Source: Winslowiella toletana (GTDB lineage Bacteria; Pseudomonadota; Gammaproteobacteria; Enterobacterales; Enterobacteriaceae). From it: a stretch of 64,000 nt of DNA. The stretch spans positions 3,844,001 to 3,908,000 of the forward strand of contig NZ_JAGGMQ010000001.1 in assembly GCF_017875465.1 (NCBI RefSeq), written 5' to 3'. Shown in pieces: positions 33,815 to 52,041 of this stretch. The translations under genes were made by a program, and so were the position numbers. Position 1 is the stretch's first letter; every line of letters begins with the position of its first letter. The notes under the pieces are model-generated. The model worked only from the letters and a program-made list of their open reading frames with translations, made no database searches and had not been told where the DNA came from.

Positions 33815-34822
33815 ATGCTGATCCCACAACCCTATTTATTATTCCTTGGCGACGTAACCGACCCGCTGGCAGCGAAAACCGCGCGCGGCATTCAGGTATG
33901 GCGTCCGGAGCAGTGTGTCGGCGAGCTGCGCCTGCCGGGCTGCACCGTCTCCCTTGGTCTTGAAGAGCTGGATATCGCCACCGCCGTCGCGCGCGGCGCG
34001 AAAACCCTGGTGCTGGGCACCGCCAATGCCGGTGGTTTTCTGCCGCAGCACTGGCTGGGGACGGTACGCGACGCAATTAGCGCAGGCATGAACGTCGCCA
34101 GCGGTCTGCATCATCGTCTGGCGGATGAGCCGGAGCTGGTGGCGCTGGCTGCGGCCCATAACGTTGAGCTATTCGATATTCGTCATATGCGTCCGAAACT
34201 GTCGGTTGGCAGCGGCAAAAAACGCAGCGGCAAGCGCATCCTGACCGTCGGCACCGACTGTTCGGTCGGCAAAATGTACACCTCGCTGGCGCTGGAAGCG
34301 GCGATGCGGGAGATTGGCCTGAAAGCTGATTTCCGCGCCACCGGCCAGACCGGCATCCTGGTCGCGGGTGAAGGTATCGCCATCGATGCAGTGATCGCTG
34401 ACTTTATTGCTGGCGCCGCTGAAGCGCTTTCACCGGCTAACGAAGACGATCACTGGGATATCGTAGAAGGTCAGGGTTCACTGTTCCACCCGTCCTACGC
34501 CGGTGTCAGCATGGGTCTGATCCACGGTGCGCAGCCACACTGGCTGGTGATGTGTCATGAAATGGGGCGTCCGCATATGCGTCATCTGCCGCACTCACCG
34601 ATGGTCAGCCTGGCGGATTGCGTGGAAGCTAATATCCGTGCCGCGCATGTCACCAGCGACAACGTCCAGCTGGCCGGTTTTGCCATCAATACCTCCAATT
34701 ACAGCGAAGAAGAAGCGCGTGCTTATTGCCAGCAGGTCAGCGCAGAGTTTGGCGTGCCAGCCACCGATCCGGTGCGTTTTGGTATCAATGATATCGCCGC
34801 GTTGCTGAAAGAGCGGGGCTAA
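33815..34822 (+). CDS. dgcN: DgcN family (DUF1611), probable D-glutamate N-acetyltransferase
   Basis: The 335-aa product is a DUF1611 protein: an N-terminal Rossmann-like half (about 1-125) and a C-terminal P-loop half with GTDCSVGK (146-153), followed by FRATGQTGILVAGEGIAIDAV compatible and EGQGSLFHPSYAGVS. In marine proteobacteria and haloarchaea DgcN acetylates D-glutamate and DgcA racemises the product to N-acetyl-L-glutamate. The two genes are adjacent here too (1 bp apart). A GGAG ribosome binding site supports ATG 33815. The older assignment of this family is unknown; activity on D-Glu is inferred from family and pairing. Confidence 0.82.
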   Translation: MLIPQPYLLFLGDVTDPLAAKTARGIQVWRPEQCVGELRLPGCTVSLGLEELDIATAVARGAKTLVLGTANAGGFLPQHWLGTVRDAISAGMNVASGLHHRLADEPELVALAAAHNVELFDIRHMRPKLSVGSGKKRSGKRILTVGTDCSVGKMYTSLALEAAMREIGLKADFRATGQTGILVAGEGIAIDAVIADFIAGAAEALSPANEDDHWDIVEGQGSLFHPSYAGVSMGLIHGAQPHWLVMCHEMGRPHMRHLPHSPMVSLADCVEANIRAAHVTSDNVQLAGFAINTSNYSEEEARAYCQQVSAEFGVPATDPVRFGINDIAALLKERG

Positions 34823-34823
34823 C

Positions 34824-35789
34824 ATGCGTCGCATGCATTTTGAAGCGGTGGAACTGCCGCTGGCGCGGCCCTTCGCCATTGCACGCGGCACACGTACTGC
34901 GGTCACCGTAGTGCGTGTCACGCTGGAAGAGCAGGGGTTTATCGGCCTTGGCGAATGTACGCCAACGCCGCATTACAACGAAAGCGCGGAAAGTGTCACC
35001 GCGCAACTTAGCGCGCTGCAGGCGCAGGTCGAAGCCGGTCTGAGCCGTGAGGCGCTGCAAAGTCTGCTGCCAGCCGGTTCCGCGCGTAATGCGCTGGACT
35101 GTGCGCTGTGGCGGCTTGAGGCGGCATTAAGCCAAAAAAGTCTGTGGCAGCTGCTCGATCTGCGCGCGCCGGAGTCGGTGATTACCGCTGAAACCCTGAG
35201 TCTCGATAGCGTAGAAAATATGGCTAACGCAGCGGCGGACGCGGTATCACGCGGCGCCATCCTGCTGAAAATCAAACTGGACCGCGATGCGATTCTGGAA
35301 AAGGTCGCCGCCATCCGTCAGGCCGCGCCAAAAGCCACGCTGATTATTGATGCCAATGAAGCCTGGTCGGGCATCGATCTTGGCAGCCTGTTCGATGCGC
35401 TGACGCACTACAACATCGCGATGATCGAGCAGCCGTTACCGGCAGGCAGCGATGGCGATCTGCAGCGTTTCCCGCATGTGATCCCGGTCTGCGCCGACGA
35501 AAGCTGTCACCAGCGCGGCGATATTGCCGGTCTGCGTAATCGCTACGAGATGATCAATATCAAGCTCGATAAATGCGGAGGTCTGACCGAAGCGCTGGCG
35601 ATGGTGACCGAGGCGCAGCAGCAGGATATGCGCGTAATGGTCGGCTGTATGCTCGGCTCTTCGCTGGCGATGGAAGCGGCGCTGCCGGTGACCCTGACCG
35701 CGGAGCATGTCGATCTTGACGGCCCGATCTGGCTGGCGGCCGACAGTTCACCATTCCTCTCTTATCACAACGGCCATATCTGGCTCTAA
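34824..35789 (+). CDS. dgcA: Enolase-superfamily racemase: N-acetyl-D-Glu racemase DgcA or L-Ala-D/L-Glu epimerase
   Basis: The 321-aa product has the full muconate-lactonising-type active site: Lys149-x-Lys151 (LLKIKLD), metal ligands Asp176 (DANEAW), Glu202 (IEQPLP) and Asp225 (ADES), and general acid/base Lys247 (INIKLDK). These positions equal those of E. coli YcjG, the L-Ala-D/L-Glu epimerase. Pairing with dgcN argues for N-acetyl-D-glutamate racemase. Either activity fits a pathway that turns D-Glu from peptides into L-Glu. A second ATG at codon 4 is possible. Confidence 0.85.
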   Translation: MRRMHFEAVELPLARPFAIARGTRTAVTVVRVTLEEQGFIGLGECTPTPHYNESAESVTAQLSALQAQVEAGLSREALQSLLPAGSARNALDCALWRLEAALSQKSLWQLLDLRAPESVITAETLSLDSVENMANAAADAVSRGAILLKIKLDRDAILEKVAAIRQAAPKATLIIDANEAWSGIDLGSLFDALTHYNIAMIEQPLPAGSDGDLQRFPHVIPVCADESCHQRGDIAGLRNRYEMINIKLDKCGGLTEALAMVTEAQQQDMRVMVGCMLGSSLAMEAALPVTLTAEHVDLDGPIWLAADSSPFLSYHNGHIWL

Positions 35790-35807
35790 CCCTATCCCGG
35801 AGTGACG

Positions 35808-37688
35808 ATGACGGATATCACGCTAACTTCTCCTGACACCGCCGCGCCCTCCGGTTCTTTCACGACGCCAGTACTGGCCGTGAACGATCTGAGCGTCAGT
35901 TTCCACGGACGCAGCGGCCGCAATCTGGCGCTGAAAGGCGTCTCTTTTACGGTAAATAAAGGTGAAATTGTCGCCGTAGTCGGCGAAAGCGGCTCCGGCA
36001 AATCGGTGACCTCGCTGGCGGTTATGGGACTGCTGGCAAACTCCGCCACTATCGAGCGCGGTGGCGTGCAGTTTACTGGCCGCGACGGTAATACCCGCGA
36101 TCTGCTGAGCCTGAACGGCGAACAGCGCCGCCAGCTGCGCGGGCGCGATATGGCGATGATTTTTCAGGAGCCGATGACTTCGCTGAACCCGGTGCTGAAA
36201 GTTGGCGATCAGCTGACTGAAGCGCTGCGCGATCATCAGCTGTGCGATAAACAAGCCGCCGATATTAAAGCGCGTGAATTGCTGCGCCAGGTGCGCATTG
36301 CTGATGTCGATCGCGTTATGAAAAGCTACCCCCATTCGCTGTCCGGCGGTATGCGCCAGCGTGTAATGATTGCGCAGGCGCTGGCCTGCGATCCGCAATT
36401 ACTGATTGCCGATGAGCCGACCACGGCGCTGGATGTCACCGTACAGGCGCGCATTCTGCAAATTTTGCGCGACCTGCAACAGCAAACCAATATGGCGGTG
36501 ATGTTTATCACCCACGATATGGGTGTGGTGGCGGAAGTCGCTGACCGTGTGGTGGTGATGTATCGCGGCGAGGTGGTGGAGCAGGGCAGTGTCGAACAAA
36601 TTTTTACCGCGCCACAACATGCTTACACCCAGTCGCTGCTGGCGGCGGTGCCGCGCCTCGGTGATATGCGCGACAGCCGCTGGCCGAAACGCTTTCCGCT
36701 GCTGGGCCAGCAGAGCGAAAACGCCGGTGACCAGCAGATCACCGCCCGCTACGAAGAGAAACCGCTGCTGGATGTGCGTGGACTGCGCGTCTACTACCCG
36801 GTGCGCAGCGGCGTATTCTCTGCGCTGACCCATCGCGTGCATGCGGTGGAGCAGATTGATTTCAGCCTGTGGCCCGGTGAAACGCTGGCGATTGTCGGTG
36901 AGAGCGGCTGCGGCAAATCCACCACCGGCCGCGCACTGCTGCGGCTGATCGACAGTCAGGCCGAAAGTATTCTGTTCCACGGCGAGGAAATCTCCCATCT
37001 GAAAGAGCAGGCATTTCAGCCGCTGCGGCGTGAAATGCAGATGGTGTTTCAGGATCCCTATGCCTCACTGAATCCACGCTTAACCGTCGGCTTTACCATT
37101 GCCGAACCGCTGTTGCTGCATGGACTGGTGAAATCGCTGGAAGAAGCGACGCCGCAAGTAGAAGAACTGCTTAAAAGCGTTGGTCTGTTGCCGGAGCATG
37201 CCAGCCGCTATCCCCATGAGTTTTCTGGCGGTCAGCGCCAGCGTATCGCCATCGCCCGCGCGATGTCGTTGCAGCCGCAGGTGATTATCGCCGATGAGGC
37301 GGTCTCGGCACTGGATGTGTCGATTCAGGCGCAGGTGGTCAATCTGATGATGGATCTGCAGAAGAGCACCGGTGTGGCATGGATCTTTATCTCCCATGAT
37401 ATGGCGGTGGTTGAACGTATCGCTAATCGTGTGGCGGTGATGTACCTCGGGCAGATTGTCGAAATCGGCCCACGTCAGTCGGTATTTAATAATCCACAAC
37501 ATCCTTATACCCGACGTCTGCTGTCATCGGTGCCGGTGGCCGATCCGCTGAATCGTGCGCTGCGCACCTTCGATGACAGCGAAATCCCTTCACCGCTGCG
37601 CAAAGCTGGCACAGAGGTGGAGAAAACCCGTTATCGCCAGGTGGCCGGGCAGCACTGGGTTGCCGAAGGCGCATTTTCGCAAGCATAA
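35808..37688 (+). CDS. Duplicated ABC ATPase of a peptide importer (GsiA-like)
   Basis: One 626-aa chain contains two complete Opp/Dpp-type ATPase domains. Domain 1 has Walker [10 protein letters not shown]-loop [10 protein letters not shown], signature LSGGMRQR and Walker [10 protein letters not shown]. Domain 2 (from about residue 320) has [26 protein letters not shown] and [12 protein letters not shown]. This fused layout is that of E. coli GsiA (glutathione importer). I used ATG 35808, six bases after a GGAG, not the GTG at 35802. It follows dgcA by 18 bp and precedes the binding protein. Context suggests D-residue peptides as substrate; glutathione remains possible. Confidence 0.92.
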
Positions 37689-37709
37689 CTTTTCATCAGG
37701 AGAGACACC

Positions 37710-39251
37710 ATGAAAGCCATACTTCGCCGTTCTGCCGTCGCCCTCGGGCTGTCATTGTGTCTGGCGGCTGTTGCCCAGGCACAGGATTTACGTATTTCGG
37801 CCTATGTCGATATTACCGGGATGGACCCGCACGATACTTCCGACAACGCCAGTTATTCGGTGCAGAGCGGGGTGTTTGAGCGTCTGTTCCAGTTCGACAG
37901 CCAGATGAAACTGACGCCATGGCTGGCGACCGATTACACCAGCAATGAAAATGCCACCGAGTTTGTGATTAATCTGCGCAGCGGTGTGAGCTTCCAGGAT
38001 GGCACGCCGTTTGATGCGGCAGCGGTGAAAACCAACCTTGAACGGCTGGCCGATCAGAGCAAAGGTCTGAAGCGTAACAGCCTGTATAAAATGATTAAAA
38101 CCGTCACCGTGGTATCGCCAACGCAGGTGAAAGTGGAGCTTAACCAGTCGTTTGGCGCCTTTATTAACACCCTGGCGCATCCTTCGGCGGTGATGTGGAG
38201 CCCGGCGGTGCTGGCGCAATATCCGGAAGAGACGCAGCTGCGTCTGCACCCGGTCGGTACCGGTCCGTTTAAATTTGTTGAGTGGCAGCCAGGCAAACTG
38301 GTGAAGCTGATTAAAAACGACAAATACTGGAAGCAGGGCTGGCCAAAAGTGGACAGCGTGACCTTTACGCCAAGTCCGGAAGATGCCACCCGCGTCGCGG
38401 CTCTGAAATCGGGTCAGGTGGATGCCATCTATCCGCTGCCTGCCGATCTGCTGGCTACCGTACAGAACGACAGCAAACTGGCGGTACAGCGTGACCCGAG
38501 TATTTATCTCTATTATATGTCACTGAATACCCAGCATAAGCCGCTGGCTGATGTGCGTGTCCGTCAGGCGCTGAACTACGCGATTAATCGCGATCTGTTC
38601 CTGAAAGTGGGTTTTGGCGGTATGGGTAAACCCGCGACATCGGCAATGCCGTCAGGCGTGCAGTTCTATCAGAAACAGACCGATGTTGATTACAGCTACA
38701 ACCCGGAAAAAGCCAAAGCGCTGCTGAAAGAGGCCGGTTATGGCAATGGCCTGGATCTGAAACTGTGGAGCACCAATACCACCGTCGCGGTGCGTGTGGC
38801 GCAGTTCCTGAAACAGCAGCTGGGCGCGGTCGGTATTCGTGTCACCGTTACGCCAATGGATTCCGGTTCGCGTAACGCCAAACTGTGGGGCGTGAAGGAT
38901 CCGAAGCAGGCGGAATACGATCTCTATTACGGCGGCTGGTCTACCTCTACCGGTGATGCTGACTGGGCGCTGCGTCCGCTGTTTGCCACCGAATCCTGGG
39001 TGCCAACCTCGTATAACGTCTCTTACTACAGCAATCCGGCGGTCGATAAAGCGATAGCGGGCGGTCTGGAAACCGCCGATCCGGCGAAACGTGCGCAGGC
39101 TTATGCCGAAGCACAGAAGCTGTTGTGGAAAGATGCTCCAATCGCTTTCCTTGGCACGCCGGATAATCTGGTGGGTAAAACCAAAAAGCTGGAAGGCGTA
39201 TCGATGCTGGCGGATGGCAACCTGCTGTTTACCCAGGCCGAGTTTAAATAA
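37710..39251 (+). CDS. Periplasmic peptide-binding protein (GsiB/DppA-like)
   Basis: The 513-aa product is an SBP_bac_5 family protein with a Sec signal peptide ending AVAQAQDL (about residue 25). It includes the conserved FERLFQFDSQMKLTPWLA, LRSGVSFQDGTPFDAAAVK, GTGPFKFVEW and DVRVRQALNYAINRD. It delivers peptides to the permease pair encoded downstream. A repeat element lies between it and the first permease gene. Confidence 0.93.
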   Translation: MKAILRRSAVALGLSLCLAAVAQAQDLRISAYVDITGMDPHDTSDNASYSVQSGVFERLFQFDSQMKLTPWLATDYTSNENATEFVINLRSGVSFQDGTPFDAAAVKTNLERLADQSKGLKRNSLYKMIKTVTVVSPTQVKVELNQSFGAFINTLAHPSAVMWSPAVLAQYPEETQLRLHPVGTGPFKFVEWQPGKLVKLIKNDKYWKQGWPKVDSVTFTPSPEDATRVAALKSGQVDAIYPLPADLLATVQNDSKLAVQRDPSIYLYYMSLNTQHKPLADVRVRQALNYAINRDLFLKVGFGGMGKPATSAMPSGVQFYQKQTDVDYSYNPEKAKALLKEAGYGNGLDLKLWSTNTTVAVRVAQFLKQQLGAVGIRVTVTPMDSGSRNAKLWGVKDPKQAEYDLYYGGWSTSTGDADWALRPLFATESWVPTSYNVSYYSNPAVDKAIAGGLETADPAKRAQAYAEAQKLLWKDAPIAFLGTPDNLVGKTKKLEGVSMLADGNLLFTQAEFK

Positions 39252-39263
39252 ACCATCGCTATC

Positions 39264-39346
39264 GTAGGGGAGCCGTTTTCGGCTCCCGTCTGGATGACGG
39301 CTACGGTGCAAACCATTGGCACGGGCGGCGATAACGCCACCCCTAC
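39264..39346. repeat. Palindromic repeat pair inside the peptide ABC operon (copy 2)
   Basis: GTAGGGGAGCCGTTTTCGGC continuing TCCCGT (39264-39289, plus) and, 31 bp on, ACGGGCGGCGATAACGCCAC continuing CCCTAC (39321-39346, minus). They are the same two modules as in the kdp operon, arranged facing each other. They occupy the gap between the binding-protein and permease genes, a place where mRNA hairpins often protect the abundant binding-protein message. Confidence 0.85.
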
Positions 39347-39379
39347 AGTGATAAAATTTTTAACCGACGAGAAATCACC

Positions 39380-40300
39380 ATGTTTGCTTATATTGTCCGA
39401 CGTCTGTTGGAAATGATCCCGGTACTGCTGGTGGTCTCGCTATTAGTATTTGGTTTTATCAAATTATTACCGGGCGATCCGGCGCGTATTTACGCCGGTC
39501 CGGACGCCACCATTGAAGCAATAGAAGCGGCGCGCCTGCACCTCGGGCTTAACGATCCGCTGCCGCAACAATATATTCACTGGCTTGGTGGCCTGTTTAA
39601 AGGCGACTTAGGCGTCACTTTCCGCACCCAGCAGCCGGTGACCGAAGTGATTGCCCAGGGCTTTATGCCCACCATGCTGCTGGCGCTGGCCGGTTTTGCC
39701 TGGTCAGTGATCCTCGGGCTGATTATCGGCGTGATTGCGGCGCTCAAACGGGGTAAATGGCAGGACTGGACGCTGATGAGCTTCGCTGTCGGCGGTATCT
39801 CAATGCCGCCATTCTGGCTCGGTCTGCTGCTGGTACAGTTTGTCGCCATGCCGTTTGGCCTGTTCTCGGTCAGCGGCTTTAATCAACCCAGCGATATTAT
39901 TCTGCCCGCGTTAACCCTCGGCGCCTCGGTGGCGGCGGTAATGGCGCGCTTTACCCGCTCGGCGTTCCTCGAAGTGGCGCAGGAGGACTATGTGCGCACC
40001 GCCAAAGCCAAAGGGCTGCGCAGCCGGCTGGTTACGTGGAAACATGTGATGCGTAATGCGCTGATCCCGGTGATCACCATGCTCGGCCTGCAATTTGGCT
40101 TTTTGCTCGGAGGCTCGATTGTGGTGGAGAGCGTATTTAACTGGCCCGGCCTCGGCTGGTTGCTGATTGAATCGATCAAATCGCAGGACCAGCCGGTGAT
40201 TCAGGCGCTGGTGATGCTGTTTGTGTTTGAATTTATTGTGATTAACCTGCTGGTGGATCTGCTGTACGCGGTGGTCAACCCGGCGATTCGTCTGCGTTAG
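39380..40300 (+). CDS. Peptide ABC transporter permease (GsiC/DppB-like)
   Basis: A 306-aa inner-membrane protein with six predicted spans. It starts MFAYIVRRLLEMIPVLLVVSLLVF-like and has LPGDPARIYAG, the EAA-type coupling loop (EVAQEDYVRTAKAKGLRSR) and the family end VESVFNWPGLGWLLIESI. It pairs with the next gene, 6 bp downstream. Confidence 0.94.
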   Translation: MFAYIVRRLLEMIPVLLVVSLLVFGFIKLLPGDPARIYAGPDATIEAIEAARLHLGLNDPLPQQYIHWLGGLFKGDLGVTFRTQQPVTEVIAQGFMPTMLLALAGFAWSVILGLIIGVIAALKRGKWQDWTLMSFAVGGISMPPFWLGLLLVQFVAMPFGLFSVSGFNQPSDIILPALTLGASVAAVMARFTRSAFLEVAQEDYVRTAKAKGLRSRLVTWKHVMRNALIPVITMLGLQFGFLLGGSIVVESVFNWPGLGWLLIESIKSQDQPVIQALVMLFVFEFIVINLLVDLLYAVVNPAIRLR

Positions 40301-40306
40301 GAGCTG

Positions 40307-41206
40307 ATGATGACTTTGCCAACTGAACCGGTGATCCCGGTGGTGACAGAGAAAAACACTATCCGCTCGCCGGGTCGCGATTTTCTGCACGCTCTGGTGC
40401 GCAACCCGCTGGCGCTGGTCTCCGGTGGTTTTGTGCTGTTACTGCTGCTGGTGGCGATTTTTGCCCCGTGGCTGGCGCCGTGGAATCCGATGGAGCCGGA
40501 CTGGATGGCGCTGTCGTCGCCACCTTCCGCCGCCCACTGGATGGGAACGGATGACCTTGGACGTGATGTGCTGAGCCGGATTATTTATGGTGCGCGTATC
40601 TCGCTGTATATCGGCGTGCTGTCGGTAACGATGGGTATGCTGGTGGGGATCGTTCTCGGCCTGCTGGCGGGCTATTACGGCCGCTGGGTCGATATGCTGA
40701 TTATGCGCGCTTCCGACGTGCTGTTCGCCTTTCCGGGCATGTTGCTGGCGATTGCAGTGGTGGCGATCCTCGGTCCGGGGCTGAATAACGTGATTATTGC
40801 GGTGGCGGTATTTAGCGTGCCGGTGTTCGCCCGTATTGTGCGTGCGTCCACGCTGTCGCTGAAACAGGCGGCCTATGTTGAAGCGGTACGCTGCGCCGGT
40901 GCGCCGGATCGCGTGATTCTGCTGCGCCATATTCTGCCAGGCACCCTGTCGAGTGTGATTGTCTATTTCACCATGCGTATCGGCACCAGCATTCTGACCG
41001 CGGCGGGACTGAGCTTTATCGGTCTCGGGCCGGAGCCGGATGTGCCGGAGTGGGGCAATATCCTGGCGATGAGCCGCAATATGATGATGGCTGGTCTGTG
41101 GCACGTTAGTGTGTTTCCTGGCCTGGCGATTTTTATTACGGTGCTGGCCTTCAACCTGTTGGGTGATGCACTGCGTGATACACTCGATCCGAAACTGAAA
41201 AGCTGA
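40307..41206 (+). CDS. Peptide ABC transporter permease (GsiD/DppC-like)
   Basis: A 299-aa inner-membrane protein: an N-terminal cytoplasmic extension, a first span (ALVSGGFVLLLLLVAIFAPWLAP-like), MGTDDLGRDVLSRIIYGARISL, the coupling loop (LKQAAYVEAVRCAGAPDRVI) and a C-terminal FNLLGDALRDTLDPKLKS. These are hallmarks of the DppC/GsiD group. It ends 8 bp before the peptidase gene. Confidence 0.94.
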   Translation: MMTLPTEPVIPVVTEKNTIRSPGRDFLHALVRNPLALVSGGFVLLLLLVAIFAPWLAPWNPMEPDWMALSSPPSAAHWMGTDDLGRDVLSRIIYGARISLYIGVLSVTMGMLVGIVLGLLAGYYGRWVDMLIMRASDVLFAFPGMLLAIAVVAILGPGLNNVIIAVAVFSVPVFARIVRASTLSLKQAAYVEAVRCAGAPDRVILLRHILPGTLSSVIVYFTMRIGTSILTAAGLSFIGLGPEPDVPEWGNILAMSRNMMMAGLWHVSVFPGLAIFITVLAFNLLGDALRDTLDPKLKS

Positions 41207-41214
41207 GAAAAGTG

Positions 41215-42255: not shown

Positions 42256-42266
42256 AGGAAGTAACC

Positions 42267-43088: not shown

Positions 43089-43102
43089 GATCGCTCTGCT
43101 TG

Positions 43103-43167
43103 GTAGGGGCGGCGTTCTCGCCGCCCGTGCCGATGGTTGCAGCGGGAGCCGATAACGGCTCCCCTAC
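43103..43167. repeat. Palindromic repeat pair at the convergent junction (copy 3)
   Basis: GTAGGGGCGGCGTTCTCGCC continuing GCCCGT (43103-43128, plus) and GGGAGCCGATAACGGCTCCC continuing CTAC (43144-43167, minus). It fills the 89-bp gap between two converging operons and could act as a shared mRNA 3'-end structure. No T-run is present. Confidence 0.85.
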
Positions 43168-43177
43168 ATTATCCGGG

Positions 43178-44686
43178 CTAACGCACATACTTCACTATCC
43201 GGCTGCGATTCAGCAGTAAGCGAATGCCATCCTCTTCCAGCTGGATCACAAAGCGTTTTTCCCATGGACCATCCTGCGCAGTGGCCAGCACCCGGCCTTT
43301 GCCCAGAGATACCAGGCTGGCGGTAATCGATGCCGGACCAATCCCCATCAGCAAGCTGTCGCCGTCGATATCAATCACGCTGCGATATGCCGCCAGCTGC
43401 CAGCGGCCCTGCAGCTGTTGCAGTGTGTTATCCGCCACCACCGGCACAAAGCGCCGTGCCGCCAGACCAATTTCACCGGCAATCGCCGCGCCGTCATGCG
43501 CCAGACGTATCGGAAAAGTTGACGATAACGAAACCGCTTCACCCGGTATATTACTGCGGTACAGGGTTTCACCGGCGCCCAGCCAGGTGGCGGTCACCCC
43601 GTTAATCTCCAGCCAGTCGCTGCCTTCTTCCGCCGCATACAGCCCGGGTTGCAGATCATGACCTTTTTCCGGCAGGGATTCATCCAGCAGCGCCGCCATG
43701 ATTTTTAAGGCGTTTTCAAAGGTGGTGACATCTTCGCGGTTAGCAACCAGCGCCAGTCCGACCTTCAGTTCAGGATGCAGCAGGAAATAGCTTTTGTAAC
43801 CGGCATGGGAACCGCCGTGACCCACCAGCCGGTGGGCGCCAATCTGCGAATGCGCCACACCAAGGCCATAACCGCTTTCACGGCCATCGGCTAAGTAGCG
43901 CGGTGCACTCAGGCGCGCCAGTACGCCTGCGCCCGGTCCCTGATCCGCCAGTACCGACTGTAACCAGCGGCTGAGATGGTTAGCGCTGCCGGTGACGCTA
44001 CCGGATGCTGAGAGATGCAGTCCGGCGCTGGCCAGCTGCCACTGACTGCCCTGGCGCCAGTAACCTGGGACCAGGCCCGGCACAATATCAAACCAGCTTT
44101 CCGGCGCAATCAGGCGAATATCCAGCGGCTGGCAGATATGCTGTTGCAGCAGATCGTTAAACAGTACCCCTTTGGCTTTCAGCGCCTCTTCCACCAGGCG
44201 ATAGCCGGTATTGGAGTAGGAGACTTCGCTGCCGCAGGGATAGCTCAGGTCGCCATTGCTGGCGACAAAATCCAGTAATGAGGCGGCGCTGGTGGCGTTA
44301 TACACCGACAAACCGAGCAGCGACAGGGTTTCACGTACGTCCGGCAGACCAGAGGTCATATCCAGCGCCTGGCCGACGGTGACCTTGCCTGCATCGCCAG
44401 TCAGCTGCGGCAGATGCTGCGCCAGACTGTCCTGCAAATTCAGCCGGTCGCTGGCCGGACCGGTGACCATGGTGGCGAACAGATGTTTAGTCACTGAGGC
44501 GAAACGCACCACGCTGTCGGCGCTGAAGGGCGTCTGCTGCGCGAGATCCGCGAGGCCACCGGCGTGGGTGGCGTGGATCTTTTCACCATCAAACAGGGTG
44601 ACAGCGCCACCCGGTGCGCCGGGCTGGTTCCAGCTGGCGGCCAGTTGGGCGGCAATATCGCTGGCATGTTGCCAGTTTAGCTTCAT
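43178..44686 (-). CDS. S12 serine hydrolase, D-aminopeptidase (DAP)-like
   Basis: A penicillin-recognising-fold hydrolase of 502 aa. The catalytic residues are Ser64 and Lys67 (ASVTK), Tyr157 (SYSNTGY) and an HGGS motif in RLVGHGGSHAG. The spacing and the long C-terminal half (about residues 330-502, two beta-barrel-like domains) resemble Ochrobactrum D-aminopeptidase DAP (Ser62, Lys65, Tyr153), not a class C beta-lactamase. No signal peptide is visible, again like DAP and unlike cell-wall enzymes. It is the last gene of the second peptide operon, and its ATG overlaps the preceding ATPase gene. Confidence 0.85.
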   Translation of the reverse strand: MKLNWQHASDIAAQLAASWNQPGAPGGAVTLFDGEKIHATHAGGLADLAQQTPFSADSVVRFASVTKHLFATMVTGPASDRLNLQDSLAQHLPQLTGDAGKVTVGQALDMTSGLPDVRETLSLLGLSVYNATSAASLLDFVASNGDLSYPCGSEVSYSNTGYRLVEEALKAKGVLFNDLLQQHICQPLDIRLIAPESWFDIVPGLVPGYWRQGSQWQLASAGLHLSASGSVTGSANHLSRWLQSVLADQGPGAGVLARLSAPRYLADGRESGYGLGVAHSQIGAHRLVGHGGSHAGYKSYFLLHPELKVGLALVANREDVTTFENALKIMAALLDESLPEKGHDLQPGLYAAEEGSDWLEINGVTATWLGAGETLYRSNIPGEAVSLSSTFPIRLAHDGAAIAGEIGLAARRFVPVVADNTLQQLQGRWQLAAYRSVIDIDGDSLLMGIGPASITASLVSLGKGRVLATAQDGPWEKRFVIQLEEDGIRLLLNRSRIVKYVR

Positions 44687-45423
44687 GCGGGTTCCTCAAG
44701 AGTGATACTTAAGTCGAACAGTTCTGCGGTGTGCGGATGCTGAATGCGCCGCGCACGCAGATCGTCAGAGCTGAGCTGCTCCACCATCTGTCCATGCTGC
44801 ATGACGCCGATGCGCTGGCAGAGATGGGTCACTACCGCCAGATTATGGGTCACCATAATATAGGTGAGCTTACGCTCTTCCCGCAGATCGCTAAGCAAAT
44901 TCAGAATTTCCGCCTGTACCGAAACGTCCAGCGCCGAGGTCGGTTCATCCAGCAATAATACTTCCGGTTCGGCAATCATCGCGCGCGCAATCGCCACGCG
45001 CTGACGCTGTCCACCGGAAAGCTGATGCGGATAACGAAAACGTACCGCGGCAGGCAGACCGACTTCCTGTAATGCTGTCGCGATGCGCTGTTCGGCGCGA
45101 TCGAGGCGGTGCACCAGCAGCGGCTCATGCAAAATGCGGTCGATAGTCTGGCGTGGATGCAGCGAGCCATAGGGATCCTGGAATACCATCTGCACCTGAC
45201 GGAAGAAGTTGCGGCCACGATGGGCGGTGAGCTGCGTACCGCCAAATTCCACCTTGCCCTGCCACTCATTATTCAGCCCGGCCAGTACGCGCAGAATAGT
45301 GGATTTGCCCGATCCGCTCTCGCCGACGATGCCGAAGCTTTCGCCATTACCAACCTGAAAACTGACGCCTTTAACCACTTTATGCGAGCCAAAGGCGATA
45401 TGTAATTTATCGATATCAATCAT
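44683..45423 (-). CDS. ABC ATPase of the second peptide importer (DppF-like)
   Basis: A 246-aa ATPase with Walker [10 protein letters not shown]-loop FQDPYGSLHPR, signature LSGGQRQR, Walker B VLLLDEPTSALD and switch His (VTHNLAVV). I used ATG 45423, which overlaps the upstream gene's stop (ATGA) and has GGGAAG in front; an ATG 15 bp earlier is less likely. Its stop overlaps the start of the S12 hydrolase gene. Confidence 0.93.
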   Translation of the reverse strand: MIDIDKLHIAFGSHKVVKGVSFQVGNGESFGIVGESGSGKSTILRVLAGLNNEWQGKVEFGGTQLTAHRGRNFFRQVQMVFQDPYGSLHPRQTIDRILHEPLLVHRLDRAEQRIATALQEVGLPAAVRFRYPHQLSGGQRQRVAIARAMIAEPEVLLLDEPTSALDVSVQAEILNLLSDLREERKLTYIMVTHNLAVVTHLCQRIGVMQHGQMVEQLSSDDLRARRIQHPHTAELFDLSITLEEPA

Positions 45424-46253
45424 ATTTCTTCCCGCCATGCAGCTTCACGTTTCATCACCGGCAGCCGATCGCGTGGATGGCGCAGTGAGGGCAGGCAGGC
45501 AAGTAAACCTTTGGTGTAAGGATGTTGCGCCTGTTGCAGCTGGCCCGCGTCCAGCATTTCGACAATCCGTCCGGCATACATCACCGCCACACGGTCGCAG
45601 AAGTGGGAAACCAGTGGCAGATCGTGGCTGATCAAAATCAGTCCCATACCGCGCTGTGACACCAGTTCATCAATCAGCTTCAGGATTTCCGCCTGCACGG
45701 TGGCATCCAGCGCACTGGTCGGTTCATCGGCAATCAGCAGTTCCGGATCCGGCGCCAGCATCATGGCGATCATCACACGCTGACCCATGCCGCCGGAGAC
45801 TTCATGTGGATAGCGTTTTGCCACCCGTTCCGGATCGCGGATTTTCACCTGCTGAAGCAGATCAATCGCCGCCGCCATCGCCGCTTTTTTGCTGCCGCCT
45901 TTATGCTCGCGCCAGGCTTCGGCAATCTGCTGGCCGATGGTCATTACCGGATTAAGTGAGTATTTCGGATCCTGCAAAATAAAGCCGACGCGTTTGCCAC
46001 GAATTTTGCGCAGGGTTTTCTCGCTGGCGCCGCGTAAATCGATGCCGTCAAAGCTTAGCTTGTCGGCCTGCACCCGGGCGTTGCCGGGTAGCAACTGCAT
46101 CAGACTACGCGCGGTCAGTGATTTGCCGGAGCCACTTTCGCCGACAATGGCGAACTTCTCTTTGCCGACGCTGATGGAGACACCGCGAACAGCCTCGAAA
46201 CTCTCGGTGCGGCTGGTAAAGGTAATGCGCAGGTTTTCAATTTCGACCAGCAT
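45420..46253 (-). CDS. ABC ATPase of the second peptide importer (DppD-like)
   Basis: A 277-aa ATPase: Walker [10 protein letters not shown]-loop LQDPKYSLNP, Walker [13 protein letters not shown] and a C-terminal Opp/Dpp extension (HPYTKGLLACLPSLRHPRD). Its signature reads VSGGMGQR in place of the usual SGGMRQR, with one Arg replaced by Gly; this is tolerated in the family. It is adjacent to the permease genes and partners the DppF-like ATPase. Confidence 0.92.
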   Translation of the reverse strand: MLVEIENLRITFTSRTESFEAVRGVSISVGKEKFAIVGESGSGKSLTARSLMQLLPGNARVQADKLSFDGIDLRGASEKTLRKIRGKRVGFILQDPKYSLNPVMTIGQQIAEAWREHKGGSKKAAMAAAIDLLQQVKIRDPERVAKRYPHEVSGGMGQRVMIAMMLAPDPELLIADEPTSALDATVQAEILKLIDELVSQRGMGLILISHDLPLVSHFCDRVAVMYAGRIVEMLDAGQLQQAQHPYTKGLLACLPSLRHPRDRLPVMKREAAWREEI

Positions 46254-47153
46254 CTAGCGCTCCTTAGGATCGAGGACGTCCCGCAGGCCATCGCCAAGGA
46301 AGTTGAACGCCAGTGAAGTGAGGAATATCGCGATACAGGGCATCAGTGGCACCCACCATTCGCTAAACAGGAAGCGACGGGCGGTGGCAATCATGGTGCC
46401 CCATTCCGGTGACGGTGGCTGCGCGCCCATGCCGAGGAAGCCAAGGCTGGCGGCGGTAATAATAATTGAGCTCATATCCAGCGTGACGCGCACAATCAGG
46501 CTCGGCACACACAGTGGCATCACATGGCGCAAAATAATACGCAGCGGTGACGCGCCGGTGATACGGCTGGCGGCGATAAAATCACTGTTTCGAAACTGCA
46601 GGGTTTCGGCGCGCGCCAGCCGGGCGTAGGGCGGCCAGGCTGTCAGCGCAATCGCCAGCACCGCACTTTCCACGCCCGGTTTCAGCGCGGCGACAAACGC
46701 CAGCGCCAGAATCAGTCGCGGGAAGGCGAGGAAAATATCGGTCAGACGCATCAGGGTTTTGTCTAACCAGCCGCCGACATAACCGGCAATACAGCCAATC
46801 AGCAGGCCCAGCGGCGCGGTCAGCAGCACCACGGCAATTACCATGCCCAGCGTGGTGCGTCCGCCAAAGATAATCCGCGTCCAGACGTCGCGTCCCAGCT
46901 CATCGGTGCCCAGCCAGTGCTGCAGAGAGGGTGCGGCAAGGCGGTTGGTCAGATCCTGGCTGCCTGGCGTGTAAGGCGTCAGCAGCGGGGCGAGCAGCGA
47001 CAGCAGCAGCACCGCCAGAATCACCAGCAGCCCGGACATCGCCAGCGGGTTTTCGCGCAGGCCAAGCCATAAACGATAGCGTCGGCCCCACACCGCCTGA
47101 CGGCGGGTGGCGGGAGTTTCATCGAGCAACCATGCTCTTGTCAGAGATTTCAT
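46254..47153 (-). CDS. Permease of the second peptide importer (DppC-like)
   Basis: A 299-aa membrane protein with an N-terminal cytoplasmic extension and GTDELGRDVWTRIIFGGR. It has a coupling loop with FRNSDFIAASRITGASPLR, and ends FLGDGLRDVLDPKER. The start is set at ATG 47153 because it overlaps the upstream permease stop (ATGA); the frame extends 18 bp further upstream. Confidence 0.92.
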   Translation of the reverse strand: MKSLTRAWLLDETPATRRQAVWGRRYRLWLGLRENPLAMSGLLVILAVLLLSLLAPLLTPYTPGSQDLTNRLAAPSLQHWLGTDELGRDVWTRIIFGGRTTLGMVIAVVLLTAPLGLLIGCIAGYVGGWLDKTLMRLTDIFLAFPRLILALAFVAALKPGVESAVLAIALTAWPPYARLARAETLQFRNSDFIAASRITGASPLRIILRHVMPLCVPSLIVRVTLDMSSIIITAASLGFLGMGAQPPSPEWGTMIATARRFLFSEWWVPLMPCIAIFLTSLAFNFLGDGLRDVLDPKER

Positions 47154-48160
47154 TTTACGCGCGGATCCCAAAGTCGGTAGAGGAGGTCGGCGAGCTGGTT
47201 CAGCAGGACGTAGGTCGCCCCGACCAGCAGCGTAGCGCCAACCACCGGATTCATATCAGCATTCATCAGTGAAGTGGTGAGGTATTGACCGAGCCCCGGC
47301 CAGGCAAAGACATTTTCCGTTACCACCGCGCCTTCCAGTAGCCCGGCGTAAGTCAGCGCCAGCACCGTGACCAGCTGCACCGCCACGGTAGGGAAGGCGT
47401 GACGCCAGATCACCCGTCGCGATGACAGCCCTTTCGCCCGTGCGGTAATCACAAATTCGCCGCTCAGGGCATTCAGCATAAAGGTGCGCGTCATACGCGT
47501 GATATAGGCCATGCTGAAGTAGGCAAGGATCAATACTGGCTGCGCCATATGCGCCAGCGCATCGCGGAAAGCGTCATAATCCCCGGCCAGCAGTGAATCG
47601 ACGGTCAGCAGGCCAGTGACCTGCGGCACCATATCCTGGAAGATAATATCCTGACGTCCCGGACCTGGGGCGATGCCGAGTACCGCATAGAAGATCAGCA
47701 GGCTCAGCAGCGCCAGCACAAAGACCGGCAGTGAGTGTCCGGCAAGACAGACCACGCGGATAACCTGATCGAGGGTTTTGCCCTGACGCACCGCCGCCCA
47801 GACGCCGAGTGGAATGCCAACAATCGCCGCAATAATAATCGCCGCCGTCGCCAGTTCCAGCGTCGCCGGGAAGAAACGGGCGATATCAGTGGTCACTTCG
47901 TTATGGGTCAGCACTGAACGACCTAAATCGCCGTGCAGCAGTTGATTGAGATAGTGGCCAAATTGCATGTACAGGGGCTGATCCAGCCCCATTTCTTGTC
48001 TGACACGTTCTACGACCGACTGCGGTGCGTTATCACCCACCGCAGCCAGTACCGGATCGGTCGGCATGACCCGACCAATAAAGAACGTTAACACTGACAA
48101 ACCAAACAGCGTCAGCACCAGGCTGCTCAGCGTGCTGAGTAAACGTTTAAACGACGACAT
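47150..48160 (-). CDS. Permease of the second peptide importer (DppB-like)
   Basis: A 336-aa inner-membrane protein with the family N-terminus (LLSTLSSLVLTLFGLSVLTFF-like), MPTDPVLAAVG, DQPLYMQFGHYL and the coupling loop around NALSGEFVITARAKGLSSR. It ends in VTENVFAWPGLGQYL and LADLLYRLWDPRVK. Its ATG overlaps the stop of the binding-protein gene (TAATG). Confidence 0.93.
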   Translation of the reverse strand: MSSFKRLLSTLSSLVLTLFGLSVLTFFIGRVMPTDPVLAAVGDNAPQSVVERVRQEMGLDQPLYMQFGHYLNQLLHGDLGRSVLTHNEVTTDIARFFPATLELATAAIIIAAIVGIPLGVWAAVRQGKTLDQVIRVVCLAGHSLPVFVLALLSLLIFYAVLGIAPGPGRQDIIFQDMVPQVTGLLTVDSLLAGDYDAFRDALAHMAQPVLILAYFSMAYITRMTRTFMLNALSGEFVITARAKGLSSRRVIWRHAFPTVAVQLVTVLALTYAGLLEGAVVTENVFAWPGLGQYLTTSLMNADMNPVVGATLLVGATYVLLNQLADLLYRLWDPRVK

Positions 48161-49761
48161 TACGCTTTTTTCACCTGCTCAAACGGGTTGTCGCGCAGTA
48201 CAGTCATATGCACGCCGGTGATGTTTTTACCGCAGGCGATGTTTTTCATATCCTGCATCATCTCAATAAACGGACTTTTTTCACGGTGTTCGCGCTGAAT
48301 CTGCTCATACAAAGCGATACGCTTCGCCGGATCGGCTTCATGCAACGCGGCGACGGTCATTTTGTTAAATGCATCGTCAGACCAGCCGCAACGCCAGGCG
48401 AGCGTACGGTTACGCGCACCGCTGCTGTTGTCGGTATTAACGCAGAACGCTTCGGTGTTGGAGTTAGGATCGAAATAGTCCGCGCCCCAGGCAGTCAGCG
48501 CCAGCTGATGGGTACGGGCGCGCATTTTGGTCAGCACCTGACGGTTTTCAGAAGAGATCAGCGACACTTTGATGCCCACTGCGCCCAGCTGGGTTTGCAG
48601 CGCCTGCGCGATATCCGGGTAAGGCTGCGCCGAGTAGTGATCGAGGGTGATTTCAAAGCCATCCGCATAGCCCGCTTCCGCCAGCAGCGCCTTGGCTTTG
48701 GCGACATCGACTTTAAACGGCTGATCGTCCAGCGCCGCCGGGAAGCCGGAAGGCAGGAAGCTCTGATGCACTTTATGCGTCAGCGGCAGAATATTTTGCT
48801 GGATGCTGTTGTAGTCGATAGCCCACTTCAGCGCCTGCCACACCTGTGGCTTTTGCAGATGCTCATTAGTGGTATTGCATGACATCAGCATGATGGTGGA
48901 AACATCCGTCTTATAGACGTTGAAGTTTTTATCACCCTGCAACGGTTTCAGCTGTTCGGTGGTCAGATCGCGCGCGATATCGACATCGCCTTTCTGCAGC
49001 ATCAGCAGCTGAGCGGAAGGATCGACGATATGTTTGATAATTACGCGTTTGGTGCTGGTTTTCGACGGGTTATGCGGGTTTTTCTCGAGAATAATGCTTT
49101 CACTGGCTTTCCATGCGCGCAGGGTGAACGGGCCGGAACCGGCGCTCTGCTGTTTCATCCAGCCATTACCCAGATCGCCGGTTTGCTGATTGGCTAGCGC
49201 CGCTTTTTTCTGCACGATGCTACCTACCGGCGCCGACAGGCAATACAGCAGGAAGGTTTCTGCTGCCGGTTCGGCGAGGTTCAGCACCAGCGTTTGGGCG
49301 TCTTTCGCCACAATCATCTGCTCAACGTTATCTTTGGTAAAACCGAACTGGTTGATAATAAACGCCGGGCTTTTATCCAGTTTAACGACGCGCTGCAAAG
49401 AGAAGGCGGCATCTTCAGCGGTCAGCGGGCTGCCATCGGAGAATTTCACCGACGGGTCGAGATGGAAAGTAAAGGTCTTGCCGTCGCTGCTGACTTCCCA
49501 GCTTTTTGCCAGCTCGCCGCGGATTTCACTGGGTTTTTCCGGGTTTGGCATTACCAGCCGTTGATAGAGGTTGCCCGTCACTTCAGAGCCAATCGCCTCA
49601 AAGCTTTCTGCCGGATCCAGACTGGTCATATTGTCGATCTGCATCGCCATCACCAGCATGCTGGCCGGGGTGGCGGCAAAGGCGCTGCTGCTGTTCAGGC
49701 TAAGATAAGAAAGAAACGGAACCGCTGAGCATCCTGCAAGAAAACGTCTTCTGGTAACCAT
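48160..49761 (-). CDS. Tat-exported peptide-binding protein of the second importer
   Basis: A 533-aa SBP_bac_5 protein. Its N-terminus, MVTRRRFLAGCSAVPFLSYL-like, has a twin-arginine motif (TRRRFLA) before a moderate hydrophobic core and an AFA-AT cleavage site, so Tat export is likely; most peptide-binding proteins use Sec. The family segments DGKTFTFHLDPSVKFSDGSP, SGPFTLRAWK and YNSIQQNILPLTHKV follow. The LAGC at residues 8-11 lies too early to be a normal lipobox. First gene of the leftward operon, divergent from the M19 dipeptidase. Confidence 0.92.
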   Translation of the reverse strand: MVTRRRFLAGCSAVPFLSYLSLNSSSAFAATPASMLVMAMQIDNMTSLDPAESFEAIGSEVTGNLYQRLVMPNPEKPSEIRGELAKSWEVSSDGKTFTFHLDPSVKFSDGSPLTAEDAAFSLQRVVKLDKSPAFIINQFGFTKDNVEQMIVAKDAQTLVLNLAEPAAETFLLYCLSAPVGSIVQKKAALANQQTGDLGNGWMKQQSAGSGPFTLRAWKASESIILEKNPHNPSKTSTKRVIIKHIVDPSAQLLMLQKGDVDIARDLTTEQLKPLQGDKNFNVYKTDVSTIMLMSCNTTNEHLQKPQVWQALKWAIDYNSIQQNILPLTHKVHQSFLPSGFPAALDDQPFKVDVAKAKALLAEAGYADGFEITLDHYSAQPYPDIAQALQTQLGAVGIKVSLISSENRQVLTKMRARTHQLALTAWGADYFDPNSNTEAFCVNTDNSSGARNRTLAWRCGWSDDAFNKMTVAALHEADPAKRIALYEQIQREHREKSPFIEMMQDMKNIACGKNITGVHMTVLRDNPFEQVKKA

Positions 49762-49974
49762 GATTTCTCCAACTGGTTGATATTTAATATTATTTTTAAG
49801 TTTAAGTGTTGTTTTCGCCTTGACTTCTGTTAAAAGGCGGTGGTTAATATTGTCAGGAGCAACTTATTTTCTCCGGCGACAAAAAGATGCCTCTTTTCAG
49901 TGCAAGCGCCTGTGCGTCTGCGCTTTTATGATGCATCGTCTTCTACCGCTTATCCGTTTACGGGACTTCAATTT

Positions 49975-51051
49975 ATGTCTGATACGCTATTTTCTGACGC
50001 CGACCTTGTGCCGGTTTTTGACGGTCACAATGATGTGCTGCTGCGCCTGTGGCGCTCACACGCTGCCGATCCGGTTGGTGCTTTTCTTAATGGTCCTGCC
50101 GCGGGTCAGATGGATTTACCGCGTATCAGACAGGGCGGTATGGCCGGTGGTCTTTTTGCGACTTATGTCCCAACGGGGGGAGTTAAGGCAAGAAGTGTGC
50201 CAGGCAAGTTAAATTTCAGCGATGTGCCTGAAACGCCTTCAATTGAAGAAGCGCGCAATATCACTTTTTCGCTGCTCAATACCTTAATTCGCATTGAAAA
50301 AAATTCTAATGGCCAGGCGAAAATCTGCCGCACCGCTGCGGATATTCGTCACAGTATTGAGAACAAAGTCCTGGCGATGGTGATGCACATTGAAGGTGCA
50401 GAGGCGCTGGATGCCGATCTTGAGTTGCTGGAGGTGTTATACGCTGCCGGGCTGCGCACCCTTGGCCCGTTGTGGAGCCGTCCGAATATTTTTGGCGATG
50501 GCGTGCCGTTCCGCTTCCCCTCATCACCCGATATTGGCGCGGGTCTGACGGAGGCCGGATTACGTCTGGTGCGCGCCTGCAACCAGCTGCGCATTATGGT
50601 TGATCTGTCGCATATGGATGAGAAGGGCTTCTGGCAAACCGCCGCCATCTCCGACGCGCCGCTGGTGGCCAGCCACTCCAATGCCCATGCGCTCTGCGCG
50701 CAGTCGCGCAATCTTACCGATAAGCAGCTGGCGGCTATCCGCGAGAGCAACGGCTTTGTCGGGGTGAATTTTGGCACCATGTTCCTGCGTGAAGATGGCA
50801 AAAAGAGTCCTGATGCCACCGTTAATGAGATCGTACGCCATGTCGATTATCTGCTGGAAAAAGTGGGCGAAGATGGCGTCGGCTTTGGTTCCGATTTCGA
50901 CGGCACCACGATTCCACCGGATATGAAAGATGTCGCCGGTCTGCCGCTGTTAGTGAAGGCGCTGGCGCAACGTGGTTACGACCGCGCGTTGCTGGAGAAG
51001 ATCTGTTACCGCAACTGGATAAGAGTGCTGGAAGCCAGCTGGGGGGAATAA
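49975..51051 (+). CDS. M19 family membrane-dipeptidase-like enzyme
   Basis: A 358-aa zinc dipeptidase of the renal-dipeptidase family, which often accepts a D-residue at the C-terminal position. I chose ATG 49975 (MSDTLFSDADLVPVFDGHND) because the 45 extra codons upstream are out of family. Metal and active-site motifs: His18-x-Asp20 (DGHND), bridging Glu in MHIEGAEA, SHSNAHALC with the second metal-site His, and GFGSDFDG. No signal peptide is visible, so it is cytoplasmic and would act on imported dipeptides. It is divergent from the second importer, with a 213-bp promoter region. Confidence 0.9.
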   Translation: MSDTLFSDADLVPVFDGHNDVLLRLWRSHAADPVGAFLNGPAAGQMDLPRIRQGGMAGGLFATYVPTGGVKARSVPGKLNFSDVPETPSIEEARNITFSLLNTLIRIEKNSNGQAKICRTAADIRHSIENKVLAMVMHIEGAEALDADLELLEVLYAAGLRTLGPLWSRPNIFGDGVPFRFPSSPDIGAGLTEAGLRLVRACNQLRIMVDLSHMDEKGFWQTAAISDAPLVASHSNAHALCAQSRNLTDKQLAAIRESNGFVGVNFGTMFLREDGKKSPDATVNEIVRHVDYLLEKVGEDGVGFGSDFDGTTIPPDMKDVAGLPLLVKALAQRGYDRALLEKICYRNWIRVLEASWGE

Positions 51052-51126
51052 ACACCAGACGGATGCGGGTTCGGCACTATCCTTGCATTGCTTATGCTCA
51101 GGATTAGTTAAGCGAGCCATAAACTC

Positions 51127-52041
51127 ATGCGATTGCGTCATATCGAAGTTTTTCAGGCCATTGTGCAGAGCGGCACCATCAGCGGCGCGGCGCGCTTGTT
51201 AAATGTGTCACAACCGAATGTCAGTCGCGTGCTGAATCACGCTGAGCAGCAGCTGGGCTTTGCGCTGTTTGAGCGCCGTGTGCAGGGGATGGTGGTTACT
51301 GCCGAAGGACGCCGGCTGCTGCCGGAAGTGGATGAGCTGTATCAGCGTCTGCAAGTTATCAGTCAGCTTACCGATCAGCTACGGCGCGGCGAAGGGCAGA
51401 TCGTGCGTCTCGGCGCTGCGCACGCCTTTGGCCAGATGGTGCTGGCGCCGGCGCTGGTAGCTTATCGTCAGCAGGCTTCGTCGGTAAATGTGGAACTGGT
51501 GACCGAGCATTTCAGCGCCTTGTGCCACAGTCTGCTAAACGACGAGCTCGATTTTGCGCTGGCCTTTGGTCAGCAGGTGCACGCTGATTTACTGGCGGAG
51601 CCACTGTTTCAGTCGTCGATGGTGGCATTATTGCCGCTGAACAGCCCGCAAAACGGCGCGGTGACGCTGGAGTGGCTGTGTCAGAACAACCTGTTAATGA
51701 TGCAGCAGCAGGATCCGCTGGGGCGTGTGTTGCATCGCGCGCTGCGTGACAAAGCGCTGCAACCGGCGGTGTCGCTGTCGATTAAAACCTATTCGGTGAT
51801 TGCTGATATGACGCTGGCGGGTGGCGGCGTGGGGATTGTCGATCTGTTTACCGCCTGTCGCTATGTCGGACAGCTGAAAATTCTGCCGATTGCGCAGCCG
51901 TTGCCATTTGAAGTCATGCTGATTAGTCGTCGCGATCGGCCACAATCGCAGTCTGTATTGCAGCTGAAGCAGGTAATCCGCCAGAAGCTGTGGGATATTG
52001 CGCGCCAGTGCGAGACGCTGTTTTTAACCCCGGCGGTGTAA
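51127..52041 (+). CDS. LysR-type transcriptional regulator
   Basis: A 304-aa regulator with the N-terminal helix-turn-helix (RLRHIEVFQAIVQSGTISGAARLLNVSQPNVSRVLNHAE, residues 1-40) and a C-terminal effector domain. The HTH is closest in feel to the OccR/NocR subgroup. It starts 75 bp after the dipeptidase gene on the same strand. I infer that it controls the dipeptidase and/or the divergent peptide importer, since it ends the cluster. No binding site was assigned. Confidence 0.9.
   Translation: MRLRHIEVFQAIVQSGTISGAARLLNVSQPNVSRVLNHAEQQLGFALFERRVQGMVVTAEGRRLLPEVDELYQRLQVISQLTDQLRRGEGQIVRLGAAHAFGQMVLAPALVAYRQQASSVNVELVTEHFSALCHSLLNDELDFALAFGQQVHADLLAEPLFQSSMVALLPLNSPQNGAVTLEWLCQNNLLMMQQQDPLGRVLHRALRDKALQPAVSLSIKTYSVIADMTLAGGGVGIVDLFTACRYVGQLKILPIAQPLPFEVMLISRRDRPQSQSVLQLKQVIRQKLWDIARQCETLFLTPAV

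Follow-up and report, generated by a model that had tools for sequence, protein, structure and literature searches.

The interval between nei and gltA in the genome of Winslowiella toletana (enterobacterial, 5.3 Mb) holds first mesX and metE-like genes and then an island of peptide importers, peptidases of several families and a LysR-type regulator, which poses the question of what substrate these genes might jointly serve. Positions are given in the numbering of the window, i.e., the whole 64,000-nucleotide stretch of DNA that was analyzed, in which the island spans 33815-52041; sampled genomes are labeled G (the window genome is G000) and fetched loci, or stretches, L. According to the list of open reading frames (ORFs) and family scans, the island reads dgcN-dgcA-gsiABCD-like-P1-M55 on the plus strand (module A), S12 followed by two ATP-binding cassette (ABC) ATPases, two permeases and a peptide-binding protein on the minus strand (module B) and M19-LysR on the plus strand. 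An initial annotation of this DNA had given the same genes in the same order; all are present as open frames, and profile scores confirm their families. Its two full peptide ABC importers are likewise both there, with the correction that two ATPases are fused in the first ATP-binding protein of module A.

We propose that the island probably functions in the nutrient salvage of short peptides with D-residues, entailing their import, hydrolysis in the cytoplasm and an exit for D-glutamate via DgcN and DgcA. The analysis establishes the gene content, its conservation and co-occurrence, the recombination of modules and the predicted S12 fold; the substrates, the D-specificity, the order of the steps and the binding of LysR are inferred. 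Peptides of this kind are abundant, both in cell-wall debris and as nonribosomal peptides, and resist ordinary peptidases.

Joint occurrence and re-assortment of the components

Among 246 family genomes, all of which were counted, M55 is present in 35, S12 (threshold E <= 1e-100) in 24 and both in 17 as against 3.4 expected (Fisher P 1e-11, with kinship ignored and no control gene pair; small genomes of 0.5-2 Mb among those listed inflate the contrast, and the S12 match in G348 spans only half the model). Counted by genus, M55 is also present in 12 of the 16 genera with S12 (P 8e-9, again ignoring kinship and with no control pair). Order-wide, M55 exceeds its cut-off in 6/197 genomes and the S12 subfamily (E <= 1e-100) is found in 1/197, counts too low for a test of co-occurrence. 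Because the families are rare and yet recur together across genera, their grouping goes beyond chance. The initial annotation had allowed that the genes might prove to be separate in relatives with no co-occurrence; some do stand apart, yet they occur together far above expectation.

In 8 of the 17 genomes with both families, M55 and S12 lie within about 20 kb of each other; in the other nine they are not on one stretch, four of these nine having them on different contigs of draft genomes. From the 266 confirmed loci of an S12 profile search the best 80 were taken. M19 is present on 59 of these, and among the 61 that are enterobacterial by title M55 or P1 shares the stretch in 31, with Pantoea, Erwinia, Dickeya, Brenneria, Klebsiella indica, Symbiopectobacterium, Acerihabitans, Hafnia psychrotolerans and Biostraticola among others. 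D-amino-acid transaminase homologs lie no more than about 2.5 kb from S12 in seven of the 19 non-enterobacterial loci (L066, L073, L096, L098, L102, L103, L104), and both of those scanned score above the cut-off of 320 for PRK06680 (403 and 426 bits).

The strongest argument for a single pathway is that the parts change places among loci. Biostraticola (L079 and L207, which are one stretch) has dgcN-dgcA-P1, lacking both the gsi transporter and M55, adjoining a complete module B. In G215, dgcN-dgcA-P1-M55-LysR stands without gsi and module B is on a different contig; in G199, dgcN-dgcA-P1-M55 likewise lacks gsi, and S12 has no module B transporter beside it. In G186, a genome from another family, M19 and LysR stand behind module A (dgcN-dgcA-gsiABCD-P1-M55-iaaA-M19-LysR), and one stretch of Microvirga arabica (L073) combines S12, D-amino-acid transaminase, M19, gsiABCD and M55, no P1 having been found there. 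P1 directly precedes M55 in the tabulated M55 loci, the exceptions being L073, L197 and the loci cut at M55 (L030, L041). On their stretches, the Rahnella and Rouxiella loci, one Ewingella locus of two, three of four Microvirga loci and two environmental Brucella have module B but no module A.

These arrangements bear on the alternative that two unrelated peptide operons became chance neighbors in a variable nei-gltA interval. The genomes with M55 and S12 off one stretch would fit such a view, as would those with one of the two families alone and the different genes that the interval holds in two congeners. It is countered by the M55-S12 co-occurrence above expectation, by the way in which M19, LysR and transporters switch modules and by linkage in other genera on stretches with no gltA found within the 10 kb flanks. 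We therefore consider it already disfavored and quite improbable.

The closest named relative of the region among the fetched loci is Winslowiella arboricola (L025), in which the island is present, likewise beside gltA, with 94-100% protein identity across it. Two sampled congeners (G308, G407) have neither M55 nor S12. The island had initially been described as replacing the nei-gltA interval, which is right to the extent that different sequence of about 1.4-1.7 kb separates nei from gltA in both of these congeners. In G308 (L200, about 6920-8089) this interval holds an open frame that we take to be Rhs-like, and in G407 some other frame occupies it, so that the site seems to be variable. A patchy distribution, within the genus too, could also reflect the breakdown of competitors' antibiotics or signals with D-residues (nonribosomal peptides), i.e., protection rather than nutrition. 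Two importers would, however, take the toxin inside, and the DgcN/DgcA family genes apparently share the operon; hence, we judge this explanation very improbable.

Families and folds of the predicted enzymes

DgcN exceeds the cut-off of its equivalog model NF041892. DgcA passes both NF042940 and PRK15129 and prefers the former, the DgcA model (Table 1). The genome's own YcjG, from a different locus, also scores above the DgcA cut-off (425 > 400), but higher still on PRK15129 (613 > 343). NCBIfam scores thus do not separate DgcA from YcjG, and the role of the island DgcA is ambiguous: its preference is for the N-acetyl-D-glutamate racemase model, but the models overlap. We considered and rejected a role for it as the standard murein epimerase, ycjG being situated elsewhere in an mppA-mpaA-ycjG-tpx-like locus. 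Likewise rejected was DgcN as a strict partner of DgcA, as module A occurs without dgcN in seven sampled genomes (L170, L172-L176, L182).

The predicted model of the S12 protein (pLDDT 86) shares the three-domain fold of the Ochrobactrum anthropi D-aminopeptidase DAP (1EI5), its best solved match, with the whole chain aligned (TMq 0.75, TMt 0.73, root-mean-square deviation 5.5, E 5e-25); it differs in its 20% identity and in falling under the D-aminopeptidase cut-off. The residues S64, K67, Y157, N159, H290 and G292 of the SxxK, YxN and HxG motifs, to which we assign their presumed roles, are invariant in 21 sequences. Relatives of S12 are mostly named 'serine hydrolase' or 'beta-lactamase family protein' where the source gives a name. 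The alignment of M55 to DppA (1hi9) spans residues 1-261, with the residues that we take to bind metal aligned. P1 aligns with its family members DmpA (1b65, presumably from Ochrobactrum anthropi) and 2drh (which we take to be a Pyrococcus-type hypothetical D-aminopeptidase) through the presumed autocleavage site, where Gly-Ser is aligned. The closest solved structures to M19 are two dipeptidases, 3ly0 and 3fdg. Outside the island, the genome encodes DadA (741 bits vs cut-off 383) and two D-amino-acid transaminase homologs.

Relationship to the glutathione and murein systems of the same genome

The genome has a separate iaaA-gsiABCD locus, where GsiB scores 1051 bits against a cut-off of 594. 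A further locus reads mppA-mpaA-ycjG-tpx, with the above-threshold YcjG and an MpaA-like frame bearing an M14 domain; the names mppA and tpx are our assumption. With these true loci elsewhere, the island is an addition and not standard equipment for glutathione uptake or murein recycling. Its module A importer, 43-59% identical to the genome's own gsi genes, is a paralog of the glutathione importer Gsi; GsiA and GsiB of module A stay under their equivalog cut-offs (Table 1). The idea of a simple glutathione importer was rejected on account of these scores and the true Gsi locus elsewhere.

Because its importer is a Gsi paralog, the main rival to D-peptide salvage is isopeptide salvage. Module A would then duplicate the iaaA-gsiABCD type and take up gamma-glutamyl or beta-aspartyl peptides (glutathione-like, beta-peptides), P1 would be a beta-peptidyl aminopeptidase and the D-stereochemistry would be incidental. 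The P1 family does include BapA; many module A loci contain iaaA or adjoin it (the one iaaA scanned gave 493 bits, under the cut-off of 567); and four family loci (L185, L187, L190, L193) read iaaA-gsiABCD and then P1-M55, without dgcN/dgcA. This last type is a second, more Gsi-like peptidase-bearing importer operon. In contrast, module A loci of the window's type are headed by dgcN and/or dgcA, their associates are S12, M19 and, outside Enterobacterales, D-amino-acid transaminase, and the window's binding protein falls below the GsiB model. On balance, we find isopeptides an unlikely substrate.

Elsewhere in the same genome (L228, C1:571000-590900) a Gsi-like importer is accompanied by a D-amino-acid transaminase (375 bits vs 320), an amidohydrolase, a carbon-nitrogen hydrolase and a LysR-like gene. 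This locus looks like one for the use of N-substituted D-amino acids, and it is a hint, the second, that the organism handles D-amino acid derivatives.

The LysR regulator and its candidate operator

LysR orthologs (E <= 1e-65) were sought in 23 genomes, namely the 17 with M55 and S12 and six with S12 only, G348 being left out. Exactly one is found in 16 of the 17 and none in the remaining genome; it stands beside M19 in nine (in two going by coordinates just past the stretch), beside M55 in six (with a stop inside the match in G304) and elsewhere in one. Two of the six S12-only genomes (G301, G354) have one, and LysR is also situated behind module A in several genomes without S12.

A 17-bp palindrome, TATARCCTNAGGTTATA, is matched at no fewer than 14 of 17 positions before module A in 35 of the 36 loci with enough sequence, L194 being the sole miss. 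It sits 78-249 bases before the first module A gene, whether this is dgcN or dgcA, and has the T-N11-A form that we assume for LysR sites. This count leaves out loci ending before or within the first gene, gsiA-first loci and L079/L207, where the best match to the consensus is 13/16; L046 and L176 appear to be one contig. The gsiA-first loci L185, L187, L190, L193 and L073 have no palindrome, and L164 and L165 are cut. A plus-strand scan of the 2.6 Mb of fetched DNA returned 36 matches of at least 15/17 in 34 loci: each of these loci has one in front of module A, and L172 and L175 have one more apiece, farther along the stretch. An operator shared with the module B promoters was considered and rejected; with no site above shuffles in the module B promoter region, direct control of that module by the same operator is unsupported.

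Layout of the island

The genes of module A are separated by 1-21 bases, with the exception of the 128 bases between gsiB and gsiC, and those of module B overlap or abut. For M19, the reading frame makes the ATG at 49975 a more likely start than 49840.

Table 1. Features of the island in the numbering of the window, with the evidence for each.
Feature	Position	Strand	Evidence
Candidate LysR-type operator (T-N11-A) of module A, 17-bp palindrome TATAACCTCAGGCTATA	33721..33737	.	Sole match of at least 14/17 in the window, plus-strand scan
dgcN, D-glutamate N-acetyltransferase family (DUF1611)	33815..34822	+	NF041892 524 bits > 480; PDB 7xrj E 2e-108
dgcA, N-acetyl-D-glutamate racemase / Ala-D/L-Glu epimerase family (enolase superfamily)	34824..35789	+	NF042940 431 > 400; PRK15129 386 > 343
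GsiA-like fused double ATPase, peptide ABC importer	35802..37688	+	Two ABC_tran stretches; PRK10261 834 bits < 1077; PRK11308 (broad dipeptide-ATPase model) 575 > 408
GsiB-like periplasmic peptide-binding protein (SBP_bac_5)	37710..39251	+	PRK15413 478 bits < 594; 44% to the genome's true GsiB
GsiC-like permease	39380..40300	+	55% to the genome's true GsiC
GsiD-like permease	40307..41206	+	59% to the genome's true GsiD
P1/S58 aminopeptidase (DmpA/BapA family)	41212..42255	+	PF03576 346 bits > 23.9; aligned with PDB 2drh, 1b65
M55 D-aminopeptidase family (DppA-like)	42267..43088	+	PF04951 321 bits > 25; aligned with DppA 1hi9
S12 three-domain DAP-like hydrolase, candidate D-aminopeptidase	43178..44686	-	PF00144 (beta-lactamase) 144 bits > 27; model pLDDT 86; fold match 1EI5
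Second-importer ATPase (DppF/OppF-like)	44683..45438	-	ORF; conserved with S12; label from sequence alone
Second-importer ATPase (DppD/OppD-like)	45420..46253	-	ORF; conserved with S12; label from sequence alone
Second-importer permease	46254..47171	-	ORF; conserved with S12; label from sequence alone
Second-importer permease	47150..48160	-	ORF; conserved with S12; label from sequence alone
Second peptide-binding protein (SBP_bac_5), apparent twin-arginine signal	48160..49761	-	PF00496 284 bits; N-terminus MVTRRRFLAG
M19 (renal-dipeptidase family) dipeptidase	49975..51051	+	PF01244 326 bits > 26; PDB 3ly0/3fdg E about 1e-118
LysR-type regulator	51127..52041	+	PF00126 and PF03466

Short REP-like palindromic repeats (GTAGGGG...CCCCTAC) at 39264-39346, 43103-43167 and 52066-52088 lie in the gsiB-gsiC, M55-S12 and LysR-gltA gaps, two of the three being at module borders. 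Between nei and the island, the segment 31551-33586 with mesX (PF08908) and a short methionine-synthase-like gene has a G+C content of 44% vs 58% in the modules and is perhaps a separate insertion.

Weighing the proposed function

By eye, no signal sequence is seen in S12, P1, M55 or M19, whereas both binding proteins carry one, that of the second apparently of the twin-arginine type; hence, the genes read most naturally as a route of import and then of hydrolysis in the cytoplasm. To elaborate, the two ABC importers would carry peptides into the cytoplasm, where P1, M55 and S12 would remove N-terminal residues left by ordinary L-aminopeptidases (D-Xaa- or otherwise blocked) and M19 would split L,D-dipeptides. 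Released D-glutamate would be N-acetylated by DgcN and racemized by DgcA to N-acetyl-L-glutamate, and released D-alanine would pass to DadA, encoded outside the island. The LysR protein probably controls module A via the palindrome before its first gene.

Several observations weigh against the salvage of D-residue peptides. At the level of families, S12 lies far under the NCBIfam D-aminopeptidase cut-off (93 < 443) and M55 under that of the DppA equivalog (170 < 430), and the DgcA model fails to distinguish the island DgcA from the genome's own YcjG. Among the seven genomes with a dgcN-less module A, dgcN is elsewhere in four and three have no DgcN match. In terms of distribution, 18 of the 35 M55 genomes are without S12 and seven of the 24 S12 genomes without M55; S12 lacks an adjoining module B transporter in 2/17 genomes (G199, G216); and 13 of 14 Serratia-labeled loci have S12 without the remaining island genes on the stretch. 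The Gsi-paralogous importer, together with iaaA, a beta-aspartyl-peptidase homolog, in many relatives, points equally to isopeptides. Finally, in 66 intergenic regions between the second binding protein and M19, the best matches to the module A palindrome are not above shuffles (lowest shuffle count 11/100). As a separate observation, in the one Serratia proteamaculans locus examined (L061, 7639-11515), S12 is directly behind hutI and hutG.

The initial annotation had suggested the salvage of peptidoglycan fragments or other D-peptides. The breakdown of D-residue peptides draws support from the recurrent association of the genes, the transaminase homologs near S12 and the folds. Peptidoglycan or murein peptides are the likeliest source, a plausible suggestion that falls somewhat short of being probable.

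Comparison with known systems

In Bacillus subtilis, dppABCDE and the neighboring ykfABCD set an M55 D-aminopeptidase beside a peptide ABC importer, and the ykf genes additionally encode a DgcA-related Ala-D/L-Glu epimerase. That system has one importer and is not known to include P1, S12, M19 or DgcN; the island M55, moreover, stays under the DppA cut-off, as noted. A second parallel is the archaeal Pab87 (CubicO) of Pyrococcus abyssi, a D-stereospecific S12 peptidase. Its neighborhood includes a dipeptide ABC importer, an aminotransferase and a D-aminoacylase, and the authors proposed that D-residue peptides derived from bacterial debris are processed and utilized (PMC2651629). Pab87 is octameric, and the consulted parts of that paper mention no M19, P1, dgcN-dgcA or second importer (PMC2651629). 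DgcN-DgcA constitute a D-glutamate route in marine bacteria (PMC10845958, PMC12363236), with growth on D-glutamate and on peptidoglycan recorded in consulted parts of PMC11747546. The island has both families, adjacent as well, but there they apparently share an operon with peptidases and a peptide importer, whereas the pathway described in the consulted parts of these papers concerns free D-glutamate in marine bacteria (PMC10845958, PMC12363236, PMC11747546). With the E. coli-type iaaA-gsiABCD, of which a paralog exists in the same genome, module A shares the fused ATPase and the gsiABCD order; it differs in the added dgcN-dgcA and P1-M55 and in the divergence and scores given above.

The initial claim that no described pathway combines all of these genes was too strong as to the kind of system: this is already known, because Bacillus dpp (dppA-dppBCDE) and the Pab87 neighborhood are simpler forms of it. 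No description of the joint island, the module exchange or the operator was found in the open-license literature searched, most subscription papers being outside its scope. While the parts are known, the combination, the modular logic and the operator look new.

Conclusions

More tentatively, we suggest that the island is one form of a horizontally moving D-peptide regulon. A single LysR may serve two interchangeable importer-peptidase modules, whether these are linked or separate, traveling with either and reading an TATAACCTNAGGTTATA operator; four peptidases of unrelated folds may divide D-residue peptides by position, with DgcN/DgcA draining D-glutamate. The conserved island, with its two importers, four peptidases and D-glutamate outlet, would offer a genetically testable system of D-peptide consumption and would give a role to uncharacterized S12 and P1 enzymes; it also supplies an operator and a regulator to search with. 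If the regulon is real, plant- and insect-associated enterobacteria could use other bacteria's wall peptides as food.

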